Below are positions 4,435 through 13,655 of a stretch of DNA of 34,854 nt, piece by piece. The stretch comes from Alphaproteobacteria bacterium (GTDB lineage: Bacteria; Pseudomonadota; Alphaproteobacteria; Caulobacterales; Aquidulcibacteraceae): positions 1 through 34,854 of the forward strand of contig JAIYAO010000103.1 of the NCBI GenBank assembly GCA_027488965.1, read 5' to 3'. The number at the start of each line of letters is the position of its first letter. The stretch's first letter is position 1. The position numbers were made by a program, and so were the translations under genes. The notes beneath the pieces were generated by a model, which saw only the letters and a list, made by a program, of their open reading frames with translations, was not told the DNA's origin and made no database searches.

Positions 4435-6204
4435 CTACTGCACCGCCACGCGCGCCTCGGCGCGCACGCCCTGGCGCTCCTGCATCACTTCGCGCAGCAG
4501 CACCGACACCCGCTCGTCGCCCACCACGGCCGCGAGGGCGGCGGCGGCGCGCGCGTTCGTGGCCGAGACGCCGAGCAGCTTCTCGATGGCCTCGAACGGG
4601 CTCTCCTGCTGCGGGAACACGCGCAGCTGCACGGCGCTGTCGGCTTTGATGCCGGCGAGCGCCTTGGCGCGGTCGATGGCGACGGCGAGCCCGCCCATCG
4701 TGTTGACCAGCTTGCGTTCCTGCGCCTGGGCGCCGGTCCACACGCGGCCCTTGGCCACGTCGCGCACCTGGTCCGGCGTCAGGCCGCGGCCATCGGCCAC
4801 CAGGGCGATGAAGTCGGCGTAGGCGCGGTCCACGCCCGCCGCGAACGCGGCCTGCTGGGCGTTGGTGAACGGCTCTGCTGAGGTGAACGCGTTGGCGTTG
4901 GGCGAGCCGATCTGGATCGCCTCGGTGCGCGCCGAGAGGTAGTACTCCAGCGCATCGCCAAGGATGATCTTGCCCGCCACGACGCCGATGGAGCCGGTGA
5001 TGGTGGTGGGCCACGCGACGATCTCGTCGGCGCCGGCGCTGACGTAGTAGCCGCCCGAGGCCGCATACGCGCCCATCGAGATCACCACCTTCTTGCCGCG
5101 CTTCTGGGCGGTTTCCACCGCGTGCCAGATCTGGTCGGACCCGACAACGGAGCCGCCCGGCGAGGAGACGCGGAAGACGATGGCCTTCACGTCCTTGTCG
5201 TCGGCGGCGTCGAGCAGCGCGCGGGCGATCACATCGCCGTTCATGCTCTGCTCGCCGCCGAAGGGAGAGCCGTCCTCCGGGCCCGACACTATGGCGCCTT
5301 CGCCGGTGACGAGCGCGATGACCGGGCCCGACGGGGGCTTCGGGTTGTAGTCCTTGATCTCCACGATGCCGGCGGTGTCGGCGCCGCCGCCGCGCTCGAG
5401 CGCCGCAAACTCGGCGTCCTCGGGACGGCCGAGCTTGTCGACGAGTTTCAGGCGCAGCGCCTCCTCACCCGTGAGCGGGGTGGCTTCCACCGCCGCGCGC
5501 ACGCTGGCCGGAGTCAGGCCCTGGGCCTTGCGGCTGTCGGCGATGGCGACGAGCAGGCGGTCGTAGATGTCGGTGAGCAGCACCGTGGTGGATTCCCGGC
5601 TCGCGGGCGTGAAGCCCGGGCGCAGGATGTCGTCGGCGGCGTTCTTGTATTCCTCGCGCGTCTGGAACTGCGCGCTGATGCGGAAGCGCTTCAGCGTGTC
5701 TGCGAAGAACGTGCGCTCCGAGGTGAGGCCCATGGCCGCCATTTCGCTGGCGTCCTGCAGCCAGACCTCGTCGGCGCCGGCGATGGTGGCGTAGCCGGCG
5801 ATGGAGGCGGTGACGCCGTCGTTCTGGATGTGGGCGACGATCCACTTGCCGGAGGCCCGGAAGCGGGCGAACGCGTCGCGGATTTCCTCGGCGTGGGCGG
5901 GCGCCATGCCGCCGGTGTTGGCGCGCACGTAGAGGCCCTTCACCTTGTCGTCCTTGGCGGCGCCTTCGAGGGTGCGCACCAGTTCGATCACGGAGGTGCT
6001 GCCGCCGAAGTCGAACGGGGAGGTGGAGGGCCCGTCGTTCAGGCCTTCGCGCAGGTCGATGCCGAGCACCGTGGCCGTGGGCTGGGAGTCTGCGTGGCGC
6101 TGGGCGGCGCTGCCGATCGATGCGCCGATGAGCGCCACGCCCACGAACACGCACAGGACGAAGCCGACCAGCACGCCGGCCACCGTGATCAGAAACTGTT
6201 TCAA
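4435..6204 (-). CDS. sppA: Signal peptide peptidase SppA, 67K type
   Basis: The 589-residue membrane-anchored serine protease (family S49) degrades cleaved signal peptides. It has one N-terminal membrane segment (~4-29) followed by two tandem S49 domains, as in the long E. coli-type SppA. The predicted catalytic dyad is Lys187 (E-E-Y-K-N-A-A, first domain) and Ser383 (A-A-S-G-G-Y-Y, second domain). The start is a TTG at 6204, chosen because it directly precedes a typical anchor and has GGAG about 9 nt upstream on the coding strand; no ATG fits. A good promoter with an inverted repeat over its -10 lies at 6278-6305. The gene appears monocistronic, with a hairpin after it. Confidence 0.95.
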   Translation of the reverse strand: MKQFLITVAGVLVGFVLCVFVGVALIGASIGSAAQRHADSQPTATVLGIDLREGLNDGPSTSPFDFGGSTSVIELVRTLEGAAKDDKVKGLYVRANTGGMAPAHAEEIRDAFARFRASGKWIVAHIQNDGVTASIAGYATIAGADEVWLQDASEMAAMGLTSERTFFADTLKRFRISAQFQTREEYKNAADDILRPGFTPASRESTTVLLTDIYDRLLVAIADSRKAQGLTPASVRAAVEATPLTGEEALRLKLVDKLGRPEDAEFAALERGGGADTAGIVEIKDYNPKPPSGPVIALVTGEGAIVSGPEDGSPFGGEQSMNGDVIARALLDAADDKDVKAIVFRVSSPGGSVVGSDQIWHAVETAQKRGKKVVISMGAYAASGGYYVSAGADEIVAWPTTITGSIGVVAGKIILGDALEYYLSARTEAIQIGSPNANAFTSAEPFTNAQQAAFAAGVDRAYADFIALVADGRGLTPDQVRDVAKGRVWTGAQAQERKLVNTMGGLAVAIDRAKALAGIKADSAVQLRVFPQQESPFEAIEKLLGVSATNARAAAALAAVVGDERVSVLLREVMQERQGVRAEARVAVQ

Positions 6205-6335: not shown

Positions 6336-7427
6336 TCACCACAGGTCGAGCTGGTCGCCGGCCTTCGGGGGGCGTGCGAACTGGCTCGCGTCCAGCGTCG
6401 AGCGCGCGCGATTGAGGCCGAGCCGGGCGCAGGCGCGCCGGAAGCGGGCCGCCAGCAGGGCCGCGAAGGGCCCCTGGCCGGTCTGGCGCACCCGCCAGCG
6501 GCTGTCGTAGTCGCGCCCGCCGCGCATCTGGCGCATCAGGCTCATCACCCGGGCGGCGCGGTCGGGGTAGTGGCGGGCGAGCCATTCCTGGAAAAGCGCG
6601 CCGATCTCGTGCGGCAGGCGCAGCACCACGTAGCCGGCGGCCGTGGCGCCCGCGGACGCGCCCGCCTCCAGCAGCGCCTCCAGTTCGTGGTCGGTCAGCG
6701 CGGGGATCACCGGCCCCGTCATGATCACCGTGGGCACGCCCGCGCCGGCCAACTCGCGCAGCGTGTCGAGGCGGCGCTGGGGCGTGGCGGCCCGGGGCTC
6801 CATGCGCCGCGCCAGCGTGCGGTCGAGCGTCGTCACCGACACGGCCACCCGGGCGAGGCCTTTGGCGGCCATGGGGGCCAGGATGTCGAGATCGCGCAGC
6901 ACCAGCTGCGACTTGGTAATGATCCCCACCGGGTGGTTGTGGCGCGCCAGCACCTCCAGCACGGCCCGCGTGATGCGGTGCGTGCGCTCGATGGGCTGGT
7001 ACACGTCCGTCACCCCGCCCATCACCAGCGTGGCCGCGGTGTAGCCGGGCGCGGCAAGCTCCCGCTCCAGCAGGGCGGCGGCGTTCTCCTTGGCGAACAG
7101 CAGCCGCTCGAAATCGAGCCCGGGCGAGAGGCCCGCGTAGGCGTGGTTGGGCCGGGCGTAGCAGTAGATGCAGCCGTGCTCGCAGCCGCGGTAGGTGTTG
7201 ATGGTGCGGTCGAAGGAGATGTCGGGGCTGTCGTTGCGGCTGATGATGGTGCGCGCCGCCTCGCGGGTGACGACCGTCTCGATCTGCGGCGGCGCATCGT
7301 CGGCGGTCGCGTCCTCCGCCGTCCACCCATCGTCGAACGCCTCCCGCTGCGCCCGCTCAAAGCGGCCCGACGCATTAGACAGCGCCCCGCGCCCCTTGAA
7401 GTCGCCGCCGTGGTGGGAGGGGATCAT
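6336..7427 (-). CDS. PA0069-family radical SAM protein (SplB-like, COG1533)
   Basis: The 363-residue radical S-adenosylmethionine enzyme has the 4Fe-4S ligating motif C-X3-C-X2-C at Cys82, Cys86 and Cys89, within the typical context N-T-Y-R-G-C-E-H-G-C-I-Y-C-Y-A-R-P. It belongs to the group distantly related to spore photoproduct lyase, whose reaction is unknown to me. The start is the ATG at 7427. Its promoter (7434-7462) is overlapped by a LexA box whose 7-bp spacer is the -35 element, which points to SOS control and a DNA-damage role (inference). The -10 is so close to the ATG that the transcript may be leaderless. The stop at 6336 is followed by the sppA promoter region. Confidence 0.92.
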   Translation of the reverse strand: MIPSHHGGDFKGRGALSNASGRFERAQREAFDDGWTAEDATADDAPPQIETVVTREAARTIISRNDSPDISFDRTINTYRGCEHGCIYCYARPNHAYAGLSPGLDFERLLFAKENAAALLERELAAPGYTAATLVMGGVTDVYQPIERTHRITRAVLEVLARHNHPVGIITKSQLVLRDLDILAPMAAKGLARVAVSVTTLDRTLARRMEPRAATPQRRLDTLRELAGAGVPTVIMTGPVIPALTDHELEALLEAGASAGATAAGYVVLRLPHEIGALFQEWLARHYPDRAARVMSLMRQMRGGRDYDSRWRVRQTGQGPFAALLAARFRRACARLGLNRARSTLDASQFARPPKAGDQLDLW

Positions 7428-7433
7428 GGGCGG

Positions 7434-7462
7434 AGACTAGCGTGCGGGATCGAACAAAACAA
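7434..7462 (-). promoter_or_regulatory. Predicted promoter of the radical SAM gene
   Basis: On the minus strand, TTGTTTT (7462-7456), a 14-bp spacer and GCTAGTCT (7441-7434) fit the Caulobacter-type housekeeping pattern TTGACGS, N10-14, GCTANAWC. Initiation would fall about at the ATG (7427), implying a leaderless or nearly leaderless mRNA. Confidence 0.6.
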
Positions 7463-7466
7463 GAAC
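7452..7466 (-). promoter_or_regulatory. LexA box (SOS operator), alphaproteobacterial form
   Basis: GAACAAAACAAGAAC on the plus strand is GTTC-N7-GTTC on the coding strand, an exact match to the alphaproteobacterial LexA site with the usual AT-rich centre. Its N7 is the predicted -35 hexamer region of the radical SAM gene, an ideal place for repression. No other exact copy was noticed in the window. Confidence 0.75.
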
Positions 7467-7802: not shown

Positions 7803-9080
7803 ATGATTGATCGACGCCGCTTTGTCGCGCACGGCGGGCTTGCCGGTCTTGGATGTATTGCCGGTTGCGCCACTGGCGCCGGCCGGCGCGCGTTATCATG
7901 GCCGGCAGTGCAGACTTTCCTGGATCGCTGTATCGACGACAGCCGCTATGCGGGCGTGGCCGTTGCGCTGCGCTACGGTGCGGATCCCAATGCCTACCTG
8001 TCCGCCGGAACGCTGGCTTTCGATTCTCGGCAGCCCGTCGATCAGGACAGCATTTTCAGGATCTACTCCACCACCAAGCCCATTACGGGCGTCGCCGCAT
8101 GTCTGCTGATGGAGGATGGGGCGATCGCCCTTGACCAACCGGTGGCCCACATCCTTCCCGAGCTGGCTGCACTTCGTGTTGCGATCAATCCCGCCCAGAG
8201 TTTGCAGTCGCGTCCGGTCGAGCGGCAGATGACTATGCGTCAGCTCATGACGCACACGTCGGGGTTCTCCAACTGGCAGCCGATGGTCGGGGATACGCCC
8301 ATCGCGAAGGCGTACCGCGCCTTGGGGCTCACGCCGGGCGCCTTTGTTGACAGGTTCCGGGATGGGTTCGGCCCGCAAGTCGTCGGCCTTGACGCCTACA
8401 TCGCGCAGCTGCCTGAAGTGCCGTTGATCGCCGAGCCGGGAACAGCCTGGAACTACTCCATGGGCCTCGATGTGATGGGCGCCGTGATCGCGCGCGCTTC
8501 GGGAATGGGCTTCGATGCGTTCCTGCGGCGACGGATTTTTGAGCCGCTTGGCATGGCGTCGACCGCCTTCCAGGTCGCGCCGCAGGACGCGCCGCGCCTG
8601 ACGACGCTTTACGGGCGTGAAGGTGGTGAACCCGTGGCCCTGGATCGGGGTTTGAACAGCCTTTGGCTTGAACCCCCAAGCCTGCTTTCCGGCGGCGGCG
8701 GACTGACGAGCAGCGCCCGCGATTTGTCACGGTTTACGCAAATGCTTCTCAATGAGGGCGCGCTTGACGGCGTTCGCGTGATGCGCAAGACCACCGCGCG
8801 CCTTGCCATGTCGAATTTGCTTCCACAGGGCGTCACCTATCGCCCGACGGGGAATGGGTTTGGCGCCGGCGCCGGCGTCGTCATGCCCGGGGTTGTCAGC
8901 GAGATCGGGCCACCCGGGTCCTATGGGGCCATCGGTGCAAGTTCGACACTGATCGTGGTGGACCCCTTGCGGCGCGGATACAGCATCTTTCTCGCGCAGT
9001 TCATGCCATTCTCGGGCCCGTCCAGCGGGTCTTTCCGTCGTGATTTCAATACGGCGCTGGAGGCAGACCTGAAGGGCTGA
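7803..9080 (+). CDS. Serine hydrolase, beta-lactamase/EstB-like fold, probable Tat-exported lipoprotein
   Basis: The 425-residue protein is of the beta-lactamase family (class C/EstB esterase-like). The N-terminus has a twin-arginine-like R-R-R-F stretch (residues 4-7) and a lipobox I-A-G-C with Cys22, so it is probably a Tat-exported lipoprotein. The catalytic S-x-x-K is Ser89-Thr-Thr-Lys92, and the second motif is Tyr218 in W-N-Y-S. The third motif, W-G-G or H-x-G in relatives, is degenerate in the segment Y-G-A-I-G-A-S-S-T near the end. GAGGT lies 6 nt before the ATG at 7803. Codon use is less GC-biased than in neighbouring genes, suggesting later acquisition. Esterase, transpeptidase-like or beta-lactamase activity cannot be told apart here; resistance should not be assumed. 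Confidence 0.9.
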   Translation: MIDRRRFVAHGGLAGLGCIAGCATGAGRRALSWPAVQTFLDRCIDDSRYAGVAVALRYGADPNAYLSAGTLAFDSRQPVDQDSIFRIYSTTKPITGVAACLLMEDGAIALDQPVAHILPELAALRVAINPAQSLQSRPVERQMTMRQLMTHTSGFSNWQPMVGDTPIAKAYRALGLTPGAFVDRFRDGFGPQVVGLDAYIAQLPEVPLIAEPGTAWNYSMGLDVMGAVIARASGMGFDAFLRRRIFEPLGMASTAFQVAPQDAPRLTTLYGREGGEPVALDRGLNSLWLEPPSLLSGGGGLTSSARDLSRFTQMLLNEGALDGVRVMRKTTARLAMSNLLPQGVTYRPTGNGFGAGAGVVMPGVVSEIGPPGSYGAIGASSTLIVVDPLRRGYSIFLAQFMPFSGPSSGSFRRDFNTALEADLKG

Positions 9081-9125: not shown

Positions 9126-9237
9126 CGCCGGGAGCGCGGGCGCCCTCGCCCGCGTAATCTTCTTGCAAACCGAGGCATGGGCGGGGGCGCCCATGCTCCG
9201 GGGGTGGCCGGATGGGGCGGGCTTCTCCCTGTTTTGG
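9126..9237. repeat. REPIN-like repeat, copy 1
   Basis: This ~112-bp element contains two hairpins. The first is CGCGGGCG-CCCT-CGCCCGCG and the second is GCATGGGCG-GGGG-CGCCCATGC. They behave as two inverted units of the form GGAGC(GC/AT)GGGCGCC..., followed by a shared tail ending GCTTCTCCCTGTTTTGG. It is nearly identical to the copy at 9661-9771 in the same orientation. Confidence 0.85.
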
Positions 9238-9579: not shown

Positions 9580-9982
9580 TCGCTTTCCTCGTCCCTGTCC
9601 GAGAAGGGTGACACACACTCCACCGCAGTGAAAATGCCAACAGCAGAACGTCGAATGTTTCGCCGGAGCGCGGGCGCCCCCGCCCGCGTACCCCTTGCGC
9701 AAGGCGAGGCATGGGCGGGGGCGCCCATGCTCCGGGATTGTGGGGATAAGGCGGGCTTCTCCCTGTTTTGGAAAGGGGAGGCCGGGCGGGTTTTGCGCGT
9801 GTCGCGCAGAGGCGGCGCAGTACGGTTTCGCCCCTGCCTACAGGGGTTTTCGTCCCACTGGCCACTTATGAAAAGGATGCCGGCGGTCGCCGGCGGAACG
9901 GGGGGATAGCGCCCTTCAATCCTACACCTGAAATCCCGTGGTAGACTGCGCGCCTCTTCGATCTTGAAAGGACGCCGCCGTT
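9580..9982. other. 403-bp non-coding region containing REPIN copy 2
   Basis: No gene is supported. It contains the second REPIN-like copy (9661-9771), then a stretch with no clear protein. The last part, around GGTAGACT (9940-9947), may be a -10 for the gene starting at 9983, but a good -35 is lacking. Confidence 0.5.
9661..9771. repeat. REPIN-like repeat, copy 2
   Basis: This is a direct repeat of 9126-9237. Hairpins CGCGGGCG-CCCC-CGCCCGCG and GCATGGGCG-GGGG-CGCCCATGC are both preserved, as is the tail GCGGGCTTCTCCCTGTTTTGG minus small changes. Substitutions lie mainly between the hairpins, so the stems seem to be maintained. No RAYT-type transposase gene is in the window. Confidence 0.85.
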
Positions 9983-11712: not shown

Positions 11713-13170
11713 ATGCTCGACGATGACGCCCTCCACGCCGCCTGCGAAGCCAAGGACGCCCGGTTCGACGGGCGCTTCTACATCGGCGTCACCTCCACCG
11801 GCATCTACTGCCGCTGCGTGTGCCCCGCGCGCACGCCGAAACGGGCGAACCGGCGGTTCTTTCCGTCCGCTGCGGCGGCGGAGAAGGCGGGCTTCAGGCC
11901 GTGCCTGAAGTGCCGGCCCGAGAAGGCGCCGGGGGCGGCCCCCATCGACCAGAAGGCGCGGCTCGCCTCCCAGGCGCTGGCGCGGATCGAGGCGGGCGCG
12001 CTGGAGGAGCAGGGGCTCGACGATCTCGCCCGCGATCTCGGCGTCACCGGCCGTCACCTGCGTCGCGCCACCGCGGACGCGTTCGGCGCCTCGCCCATCG
12101 ATCTGGCGCAGACGCACCGCCTGCTCACCGCCAAGCGCCTGCTCACCGAGACGCGCCTGCCCGTCACCGAGATCGCCTTCGCCAGCGGCTTCCAGAGCGT
12201 GCGGCGCTTCAACGCGCTGTTTGCGGAGCGCTACGGCTTTCCACCCTCACGGTTGCGCGGCGCGCGCACGGAGGCGCGCGAACCGACGCTGACGCTCGAT
12301 CTCGTGGCGCGCGGCGCCTTCGATCCTGCAGCGCACTTCGCCTTCCTCGCCTCGCGTGCGCTCGACGGCGTGGAGACCTGCACGGGCGGTTACGCGCGCA
12401 CGCTGAAGATCGGCCCGCATGCGGGCTGGATCGCGGTGCGGCCGGGCCCGCGCGGCGTGGCGCTGACGCTGTCGAACGATCTGGCGCCGGCGCTGCGGCC
12501 GCTTGTCTCGAACGTGCGCGGCGCGTTCGATCTCGATGCCGATGTCGCCGCCATCGATGCAGCGCTGGGAGACGATCCCGCGCTCGACATCGCCGCCGAA
12601 CCGGGCGTGCGCATTCCTGGCGGGCTCGATCCGTTCGAGATGGCGGTGCGCGCGGTGCTGGGCCAGCAGGTGACGGTGGGCGCGGGCCGCAAGCTTGCGC
12701 AGAAACTCGTGGACGCGTTCGGCATGCCGATCGTCACGGGCGTCGTGGGGCTCGACCGGCTGTTCCCGGATGCGGCGCGTCTCGCCGCCGTCGACGCTTC
12801 CCACGTGGCGGCGCTCGGCATGCCGCGGGCGCGGGCGGACACGCTGGTGCGTCTTGCGCAGGCGGTGGCGGACGGGCGGGTGACGCTGGCGCGCGGCGCG
12901 ATCGCGGCCGGGCGCGAAGGGCTGGCTGCGCTCGCCGGGATCGGGCCGTGGACCATCGAATACGTGGCGCTGCGCGGCCTGGGCGATCCCGACGCCTTTC
13001 CCGCCGGCGACAGCGCGATCCGCGGCGCACTGCAGATGACGCGCGGCGTCGAAACGCACGCAGCGGGGTGGAGCCCCTGGCGCGCGTACGCCGCCGTGCG
13101 GCTGTGGCGCCGGCATGCCGCGATGGCGACCCAGATGAAAACGAAAGACCGAACCGGAGAGACACGATGA
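11713..13170 (+). CDS. alkA: Ada zinc domain / AraC-type / AlkA 3-methyladenine DNA glycosylase fusion
   Basis: The 485-residue protein has three parts. The first is an Ada-type methylphosphotriester-sensing zinc domain (residues ~10-75) with Cys33, Cys37, Cys64 and Cys67, where Cys33 is the expected methyl acceptor. The second is an AraC-type helix-turn-helix domain (~85-185). The third is an AlkA-like glycosylase with the AlkA N domain (~190-300) and HhH-GPD (~305-470); the hairpin L-A-G-I-G-P-W-T is at 407-414 and catalytic Asp433 is in A-G-D-S. It removes alkylated bases and probably activates transcription when methylated. Its stop overlaps the ogt start (ATGA), so the missing O6-methyltransferase activity is supplied next door. 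Extra Cys35 lies between the first two ligands. Confidence 0.95.
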   Translation: MLDDDALHAACEAKDARFDGRFYIGVTSTGIYCRCVCPARTPKRANRRFFPSAAAAEKAGFRPCLKCRPEKAPGAAPIDQKARLASQALARIEAGALEEQGLDDLARDLGVTGRHLRRATADAFGASPIDLAQTHRLLTAKRLLTETRLPVTEIAFASGFQSVRRFNALFAERYGFPPSRLRGARTEAREPTLTLDLVARGAFDPAAHFAFLASRALDGVETCTGGYARTLKIGPHAGWIAVRPGPRGVALTLSNDLAPALRPLVSNVRGAFDLDADVAAIDAALGDDPALDIAAEPGVRIPGGLDPFEMAVRAVLGQQVTVGAGRKLAQKLVDAFGMPIVTGVVGLDRLFPDAARLAAVDASHVAALGMPRARADTLVRLAQAVADGRVTLARGAIAAGREGLAALAGIGPWTIEYVALRGLGDPDAFPAGDSAIRGALQMTRGVETHAAGWSPWRAYAAVRLWRRHAAMATQMKTKDRTGETR

Positions 13171-13655
13171 CCGCCGTCCACATCCACGACAGCCCCGTCG
13201 GTCCGCTCACGCTCGTCTCCGACGGCGCAGCGCTCACCGGCGTCTTTTTCGAGAAGCAGAAGCATGGCGTGGCGCCCGCCGAGGCGACGAAGCCGGACCG
13301 CATCATCGATGCGGCGCGCAAGCAGCTCGATTCCTATTTCGCGGGGCGCCGCACCGGCTTCGACCTGCCGCTGAAGCCCACCGGCACCGCGTTCCAGACG
13401 CGCGTGTGGGCGGCGCTGACGAAAATCCCCTACGGCGAGACGAAAAGCTACGGCGCCGTCGCCGCCGGCATCGGCTCGCCGAAGGCCGTGCGCGCCGTGG
13501 GCGCCGCCAACGGCCGCAACCCGATCCCCATCATCATCCCGTGCCACCGCGTCATCGGCGCAGATGGAACGCTCACCGGGTTCGGCGGCGGCATGGAGCG
13601 CAAGGCGTGGCTGCTCGATCTGGAACGCGGCGCGCTGTTTCCGGGCGGGCGGTGA
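13167..13655 (+). CDS. ogt: Methylated-DNA--protein-cysteine methyltransferase
   Basis: The 162-residue suicide repair enzyme transfers the alkyl group from O6-alkylguanine in DNA to its own cysteine. The acceptor is Cys126 in the motif I-P-C-H-R-V-I, preceded by the helix-turn-helix region P-Y-G-E-T-K-S-Y-G. Length and order match single-domain Ogt. The ATG at 13167 overlaps the stop of the Ada-AlkA fusion, indicating coupled translation and one adaptive-response operon. A small GC-rich hairpin (13667-13682) follows the stop. Confidence 0.95.
   Translation: MTAVHIHDSPVGPLTLVSDGAALTGVFFEKQKHGVAPAEATKPDRIIDAARKQLDSYFAGRRTGFDLPLKPTGTAFQTRVWAALTKIPYGETKSYGAVAAGIGSPKAVRAVGAANGRNPIPIIIPCHRVIGADGTLTGFGGGMERKAWLLDLERGALFPGGR

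Follow-up and report, generated by a model that had tools for sequence, protein, structure and literature searches.

Why should the gene for a radical SAM enzyme begin just behind an exact LexA box, and what would such an enzyme do in a cell whose DNA is damaged? These questions are raised by a gene on contig JAIYAO010000103.1 of an alphaproteobacterium from the Caulobacterales (assembly GCA_027488965.1). The whole stretch of 34,854 nucleotides that was analysed is called here the window.

The product of the gene, P0001, belongs to the PA0069 family, whose NCBIfam model (NF033668, typed as "hypoth_equivalog") it matches over residues 11-362, above the cut-off of 360 bits. It is the sole PA0069-type match in its own genome, even at E values up to 1. 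The start codon is fixed, because a TAG stop stands three codons 5' of the ATG and, up to the conserved GRGA motif, the reading frame contains neither a second ATG nor any GTG or TTG. The three cysteines of the CxxxCxxC cluster motif (C82, C86 and C89) are invariant in 44 aligned members of the family. The family is widespread; of 299 genomes sampled evenly over the phylum, 111 contain a protein that scores above the NF033668 cut-off. The features discussed below are collected in Table 1.

Table 1. Features of the radical SAM gene and its upstream region, in window coordinates
Feature	Position	Strand	Basis
PA0069-family radical SAM gene, P0001, 363 aa	6336..7427	-	NF033668 512.5 bits; PF04055
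QLDLW, codons 359-363, putative beta-clamp-binding motif	6339..6353	-	Q359 and L362 invariant; family statistics
Codon 138 (Gly), aligned with SPL catalytic Cys140	7014..7016	-	MAFFT with 4fhc
Radical SAM iron-sulphur cysteines CEHGCIYC, codons 82-89	7161..7184	-	C82, C86, C89 invariant
-10 hexamer TAGTCT, 17 bp after the -35, 6 nt before the ATG	7434..7439	-	sequence and comparison
LexA operator GTTC-TTGTTTT-GTTC	7452..7466	-	exact match; ortholog conservation
-35 hexamer TTGTTT, inside the operator	7457..7462	-	sequence; TTG here in 82/87 loci

The operator and its conservation

The original prediction had taken GAAC-N7-GAAC, upstream of the gene, for an exact alphaproteobacterial SOS operator. 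The sequence there is indeed GAACAAAACAAGAAC, which reads GTTCTTGTTTTGTTC on the minus strand, and the window contains no second exact GTTC-N7-GTTC. A single site of this kind is, of course, not significant alone; 0.61 such sites are expected by chance per window, and the whole genome holds 54 of them, versus 41 of a reversed control pattern. The significance of the operator comes from its conservation in orthologs.

The host genome has a lexA gene, and such boxes stand before several other genes. Its lexA match (G000:C2:59507-60172; 169.2 bits, over the cut-off) has a box at 59436-59450 of the same contig, ending 56 nt 5' of the match. Boxes likewise stand upstream of uvrA and recA, whose matches exceed a curated cut-off, and upstream of an imuA/imuB-like pair. 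The pair is identified by the order of its genes and by similarity, because the profile matches fall below cut-off; for imuA the match reaches 47.8, its cut-off being 150, and the sole models that the imuB-like protein hits are those of polymerase IV, again with scores below cut-off.

The even sample contributes 110 gene-positive loci besides the window, 71 of them from alphaproteobacteria and 39 from other classes of the phylum (37 read by script and two more by eye). A search of ortholog promoters for GTTC-N7-GTTC had been proposed together with the prediction, and it found the site to be conserved. An exact box lies upstream in the orientation of the gene in 66 of the 71 alphaproteobacterial orthologs, one of which also has a reversed box; CTGT-N8-ACAG, the E. 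coli-type box, occurs exactly in none of the 71. In the other classes the pattern is turned around. There, the alphaproteobacterial box is found in none of the 37 loci read by script and an exact CTGT-N8-ACAG in 27 of them, or in 29 of 39 when the two loci read by eye are included. The background is small on both sides, with 0.007 alphaproteobacterial boxes per 540-base window in the alphaproteobacteria and, for the other classes, not one exact CTGT-N8-ACAG in 127 kb. This matching switch of boxes means that, in most of the sampled loci, control of the radical SAM gene appears to have followed LexA through a change in its binding sequence. As judged from the comparison of these upstream sequences, LexA control of the gene is near certain.

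The exceptions deserve equal attention. Five of the 71 alphaproteobacterial loci lack an exact box. Four of these have a site with one mismatch, which is weak evidence because 0.2 such sites are expected per upstream window; the fifth (L169) has no site even at one mismatch. An exact CTGT-N8-ACAG is missing in 10 of the 37 other-class loci. One of the other-class loci (L184) carries TTAG-N6-TACTA, the Xanthomonas LexA motif, another (L221) has a partial LexA site when read by eye, and eight of the 37, including three of the four in family f38, have no LexA box of the types tried. Four box-less loci of families f38 and f59 (L177, L188, L203 and L202) have in common, by eye, a GAGAC followed by a G+C-rich stretch and a TA just before the start, possibly another type of promoter.

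Two further sets consist of nearest relatives and partly overlap, so the even sample is the fairer test. In the first, the 250 nt that precede the match were read in the 80 closest named relatives. GTTC-N7-GTTC follows the orientation of the gene in 70 of them and occurs solely in the opposite one in another (L002), and nine lack it in both. At most 0.012 sites in either orientation are expected in a stretch of this length, a background that counts some true boxes and is therefore too high rather than too low. The second set holds 30 in-order loci, the window included; the box is present in 26 of the 29 that were readable, and the unreadable one (L106) also shows it. The radical SAM gene of two Caulobacter relatives (L053 and L058) has the box GTTCttgttatGTTC. 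The same box, letter for letter, precedes two C. crescentus SOS genes induced by mitomycin C, according to one report (PMC12700426).

Promoter geometry and the start of the message

The original prediction further held that the N7 of the operator is the -35 element of a promoter. This is borne out by the order of elements on the minus strand, where TTGTTT inside the box is followed by 17 bp, TAGTCT, CCGCCC and the ATG (7425-7427). The promoter as first written, TTGTTTT, 14 bp and GCTAGTCT, is this same pair, with a longer word taken for each element. When scanned with a generic sigma-70 model (9 of 12 rule), the operator-overlapping promoter is not called; support for it is comparative.

For this comparison, 155 loci with the box yielded 87 distinct ones, the window among them as L081, in which an in-frame start lies 22-28 nt after the box; the start was picked by this distance and may, in some loci, not be the true one. 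TTG stands within the box in 82 of the 87. The pattern TANNNT lies 4-10 nt before the start in 57, as compared with a mean of 9.3 and a maximum of 19 in 500 shuffles. Within these 57 loci, TANNNT is separated from the start by 6 nt in 33 cases and by 7 nt in 13; its spacing from the position of the TTG is 16-17 in 55. Words resembling a Shine-Dalgarno sequence were found in 13 of the 87.

Recurrence of the leaderless-type geometry in 57 of 87 loci supports the leaderless message that had been foreseen for this gene, and such a message is likely on the evidence of these spacings. The layout does vary. In 13 loci the start follows the box by merely 10-14 nt, and six of these have a TANNNT right before it; the distance from the box to the radical SAM gene is larger in other families of the class. 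As a separate observation, the imuA-like gene of the host (L111; box at G000:C2:1574-1588) starts 23 nt after its box, and the radical SAM gene 24 nt after its own. The leaderless layout may be common to several SOS genes.

An SPL-like scaffold with a clamp-type tail

The AlphaFold model of P0001 (mean pLDDT 86.2) finds its best Foldseek match in spore photoproduct lyase (SPL), with an E value of 9e-9; the PDB entries of the mutants C140A and C140S appear in the same Foldseek search. In a comparison of folds by Z score, six SPL entries reach 18.9-19.2. The next family, lipoyl synthase, reaches 14.7, and Z values of 12-15 are obtained for radical SAM families that act on RNA, nucleotides or peptides. 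Structural alignment with 4fhf (Z 19.2) gives an rmsd of 3.1 over 266 residues at about 14% identity. Sequence comparisons reach less far. P0001 alone finds no match in a search of PDB sequences, the family profile finds weak matches only, the best being radical SAM enzymes, and at 0.001 P0001 is not hit by the Pfam model for SPL (PF20903), which matches 8 of the 44 aligned members at E up to 0.01.

The hydrogen atom donor of spore photoproduct lyase is Cys140. This residue was sought in a MAFFT alignment of the 44 members with the sequence of 4fhc, which is not a residue-level structural alignment. The Cys140 column holds T in 19 members, I in 7, A in 6, V in 4, G in 3, S in 3, P in 1 and M in 1; neither in this column nor within three columns of it does any of the 44 have a cysteine. 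A conserved cysteine outside the cluster is absent from the whole alignment, the commonest such column having Cys in 17 of 44 members. The position of the column rests on MAFFT, because an hhalign comparison of the family profile with SPL spans just 69 columns. Several other core residues of SPL are retained. The equivalents of D143, E206 and Y96 are kept in all 44 members and that of K174 in 43; S142 is replaced by T in all 44.

Thus, the PA0069 family and SPL are alike in a fold of about 265 residues, in the cluster motif and in several core residues. They differ in Cys140, for which the PA0069 family has no cysteine, and in the SOS operator and clamp-type tail that the family adds; the SPL chain itself ends in AYVQYFT. 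On the model and the alignment, the PA0069 family is an SPL-like scaffold without the catalytic cysteine, one of the features that define SPL.

The tail is the second distinguishing feature. Proteins of the PA0069 family end in Q-x-x-L-[F/L/W], after a stretch that is variable in both sequence and length, and both Q359 and L362 are invariant in the 44 aligned members. These ends resemble the motif by which proteins bind the beta clamp, for which one source (PMC13254535) gives a canonical form, QL[S/D]LF, and a revised one, Q-phi-x-[L/M]-[F/L] or Q-phi-x-[L/M]-x-[F/L]. A relaxed form was defined here that allows any second residue and accepts either a pentamer closing in F, L, W or M, or the hexamer.

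Tails were scored over the last 12 residues of 200 distinct proteins, from 206 read; 14 loci were left out (13 without the search motif and one incomplete). The commonest tails are QLSLF (30 proteins) and QLSLL (23). The canonical motif occurs at 32 of the 200 C-termini, against none of 4800 internal windows and none of 425 ends of neighbouring open reading frames, which were called mechanically and include some that are not real genes. The corresponding counts are 111, 1 and 2 for the revised motif, and 189, 6 and 6 for the relaxed one. Allowing the revised motif M at its second place and W at its end raises the number to 152. In 10 of the 200 proteins, not even the relaxed motif occurs among the last 20 residues. 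These sequences are related and come partly from the same genomes, so that the counts are not independent. The window's own QLDLW fits the revised motif apart from its final W. The model confidence of P0001 stays at 80 for residues 351-360 and falls to 50 at 361-363 only, and a long flexible linker is therefore not supported.

From the statistics of these tails, it is quite probable that PA0069-family enzymes dock on the beta clamp (DnaN) by their C-termini. They would resemble known clients of the clamp in the type of motif and, as with one Pol III motif, in its C-terminal position. They would differ in being radical SAM enzymes; no such client, and no publication joining the PA0069 family with clamp binding turned up among titles and the beginnings of abstracts, a search that left most subscription journals outside its range.

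Proposed role, relatives and neighbours

How might these parts work together? In the mechanism that we infer, LexA would bind the direct repeat and cover the -35 element of the only evident promoter, so that the gene is repressed. DNA damage would lead to cleavage of LexA and thereby to induction; transcription would start at or next to the ATG, and the leaderless message would be translated. The tail would then hold the enzyme on the clamp at sites of replication or gap filling. There, with DNA as its substrate, the enzyme would work next to the translesion polymerases, using radical chemistry to reverse a lesion or adduct directly or to convert it. The broad reading, an SOS-induced, clamp-docked radical SAM enzyme that acts on DNA where clamps are loaded, seems to us probable on sequences and model together. 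That its chemistry is directed at DNA lesions is our best guess, which we favour with less assurance. The DNA-damage function that the original prediction drew from SOS control is supported by the conserved operator, by the SPL fold and by the clamp-type C-terminal motif. The narrowest form of the idea, a clamp-tethered repair arm that, where forks stall or gaps remain, directly repairs or converts a DNA lesion by a novel radical reaction, has about an even chance of being correct. Its chemistry would have to differ from that of SPL, because the catalytic cysteine is gone.

Other readings must, of course, be weighed against this one. One was published in 2012, when SOS control of "splB" in alpha- and betaproteobacteria was predicted and its product taken for a photoreactivation enzyme (PMC3323433). 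The gene would then encode a true spore photoproduct lyase outside the spore-formers. This agrees with the closest fold, with the retention of D143, K174, E206 and Y96 and the replacement of S142 only by T, and with the name splB, which is used for the homolog in another account as well (PMC8565304). However, there is no cysteine in the Cys140 column of the 44 members, nor a conserved non-cluster cysteine to take its place, and PF20903 matches few of them. On the absent catalytic cysteine, a true SPL is rejected as the likeliest reading and is held to be quite improbable. A somewhat better case, still an unlikely one, can be made for an enzyme that modifies RNA, a nucleotide or a protein and is placed at stressed forks by SOS control and its tail. 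Radical SAM families with such substrates do appear among the fold matches, and a gene for RNase HII downstream in 30 of the 71 alphaproteobacteria could hint at RNA in DNA. SPL nevertheless scores above all those families, and RNase HII stands beside the radical SAM gene in none of the 39 loci of other classes and is absent from the examined neighbours in the window.

The tail itself might be a structural element with a partner other than the clamp, which is doubtful, yet the least improbable of these alternatives. The published consensus is met by just over half of the tails, the window tail ends in W, and confidence in the model persists almost to the C-terminus. Against this, the motif stands at the very end of the chain after a variable stretch, its Q and L are invariant, and the commonest tails equal or nearly equal the canonical motif. 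That the LexA box is a chance match can be given practically no weight. The number of sites expected per window and a genome count modestly above its control would allow it; conservation of position and orientation across the alphaproteobacterial orthologs, with the matching change of box in other classes, refutes it.

Regulation by SOS is, in any case, not new, having already been predicted for the splB homolog. The published alphaproteobacterial splB genes are presumably members of the PA0069 family. The accounts of COG1533 "splB" (PMC3323433, PMC8565304, PMC7739468) share with the present one a broad family and predicted SOS control, and two of them place a radical SAM protein or splB in the SOS networks of other groups (PMC7739468, PMC8565304). 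The parts of the three that were accessible mention no clamp tail, missing SPL cysteine or leaderless geometry. Elsewhere, a Streptomyces radical SAM gene with a LexA site is described (PMC9380542), and SplB-like enzymes are linked to ImuB-C domains (PMC3765255). Neither the SPL fold without its catalytic cysteine nor the clamp-type tail of the family was found in the portions of the literature that were searched.

To our knowledge, spore photoproduct lyase is in essence the only known case of a radical SAM enzyme that repairs DNA. If the clamp-docked reading is true, a second kind would exist, and with it a new chemical arm of the SOS response. The family that supplies it would be widespread, apparently kept under SOS control despite changes in the LexA site, and apparently carried to damage by the clamp. 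Sequence comparison suggests that in many bacteria the gene is damage-induced and that its product probably mends DNA at damaged replication sites.

More distant relatives show some of the same traits. P0001 scores 207 bits against the related Rv2578c family of actinobacterial radical SAM proteins (NF038135), below the cut-off of 430. Four actinobacterial plasmid relatives, one of them annotated as Rv2578c family, end in QLTLL, QLRLL, QEPLF and QESLF, tails of the QxxLL/QxxLF type. Three of the four have a LexA-like site one or two mismatches from TCGAAC-N4-GTTCGA, a count for which no background was computed. This sequence is the actinobacterial-type LexA motif, a type of box different from that of the PA0069 gene. 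A Legionella plasmid relative (L259) ends in QLDLF and has no CTGT-N8-ACAG site at up to one mismatch; a Paenibacillus relative (L257) has neither a clamp tail nor an exact LexA box. Ten loci were found on viral contigs, of which eight (L242-L249) were examined. Three have no cluster motif near the match and three end before the C-terminus; the two complete ones lack a clamp tail, and in the five viral loci that were read, no exact match to any of the LexA boxes tried is present.

The RNase HII genes mentioned above begin no farther than about 1.5 kb downstream. Of these, 27 run in the same direction as the radical SAM gene (one a partial match; the query was the PF01351 copy of L045) and three run against it, and 17 of the 80 named relatives also have one downstream. 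As an operon partner, RNase HII is not part of the core argument, since it follows the gene in only part of the alphaproteobacteria. A DNA methylase gene (PF01555, the copy of L015) lies downstream in 12 of the 80 named relatives. In two sets of 20 genomes picked by hand, DnaE2 scores over its cut-off in 15 of those that have the radical SAM gene and in 13 of those that lack it. The link is thus unsupported, and a fixed partnership with the DnaE2 mutasome is disfavoured because DnaE2 is about as common where the gene is missing.

In the window itself, the divergent neighbour (7803-9080, plus strand) encodes a Beta-lactamase-family protein (PF00144), and a peptidase S49 protein (PF01343) is encoded at 4435-6204 on the minus strand. 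An alkylation-repair pair lies at 11713-13655, at a distance of about 4 kb. Its first gene encodes Ada metal-binding, AraC-type and AlkA domains, and the reading frame that follows is Ogt-like, as judged from the translation. Two direct repeats of 107 nt (9131-9237 and 9665-9771) are 85% alike and 534 nt apart from start to start; they may be copies of a dispersed element.
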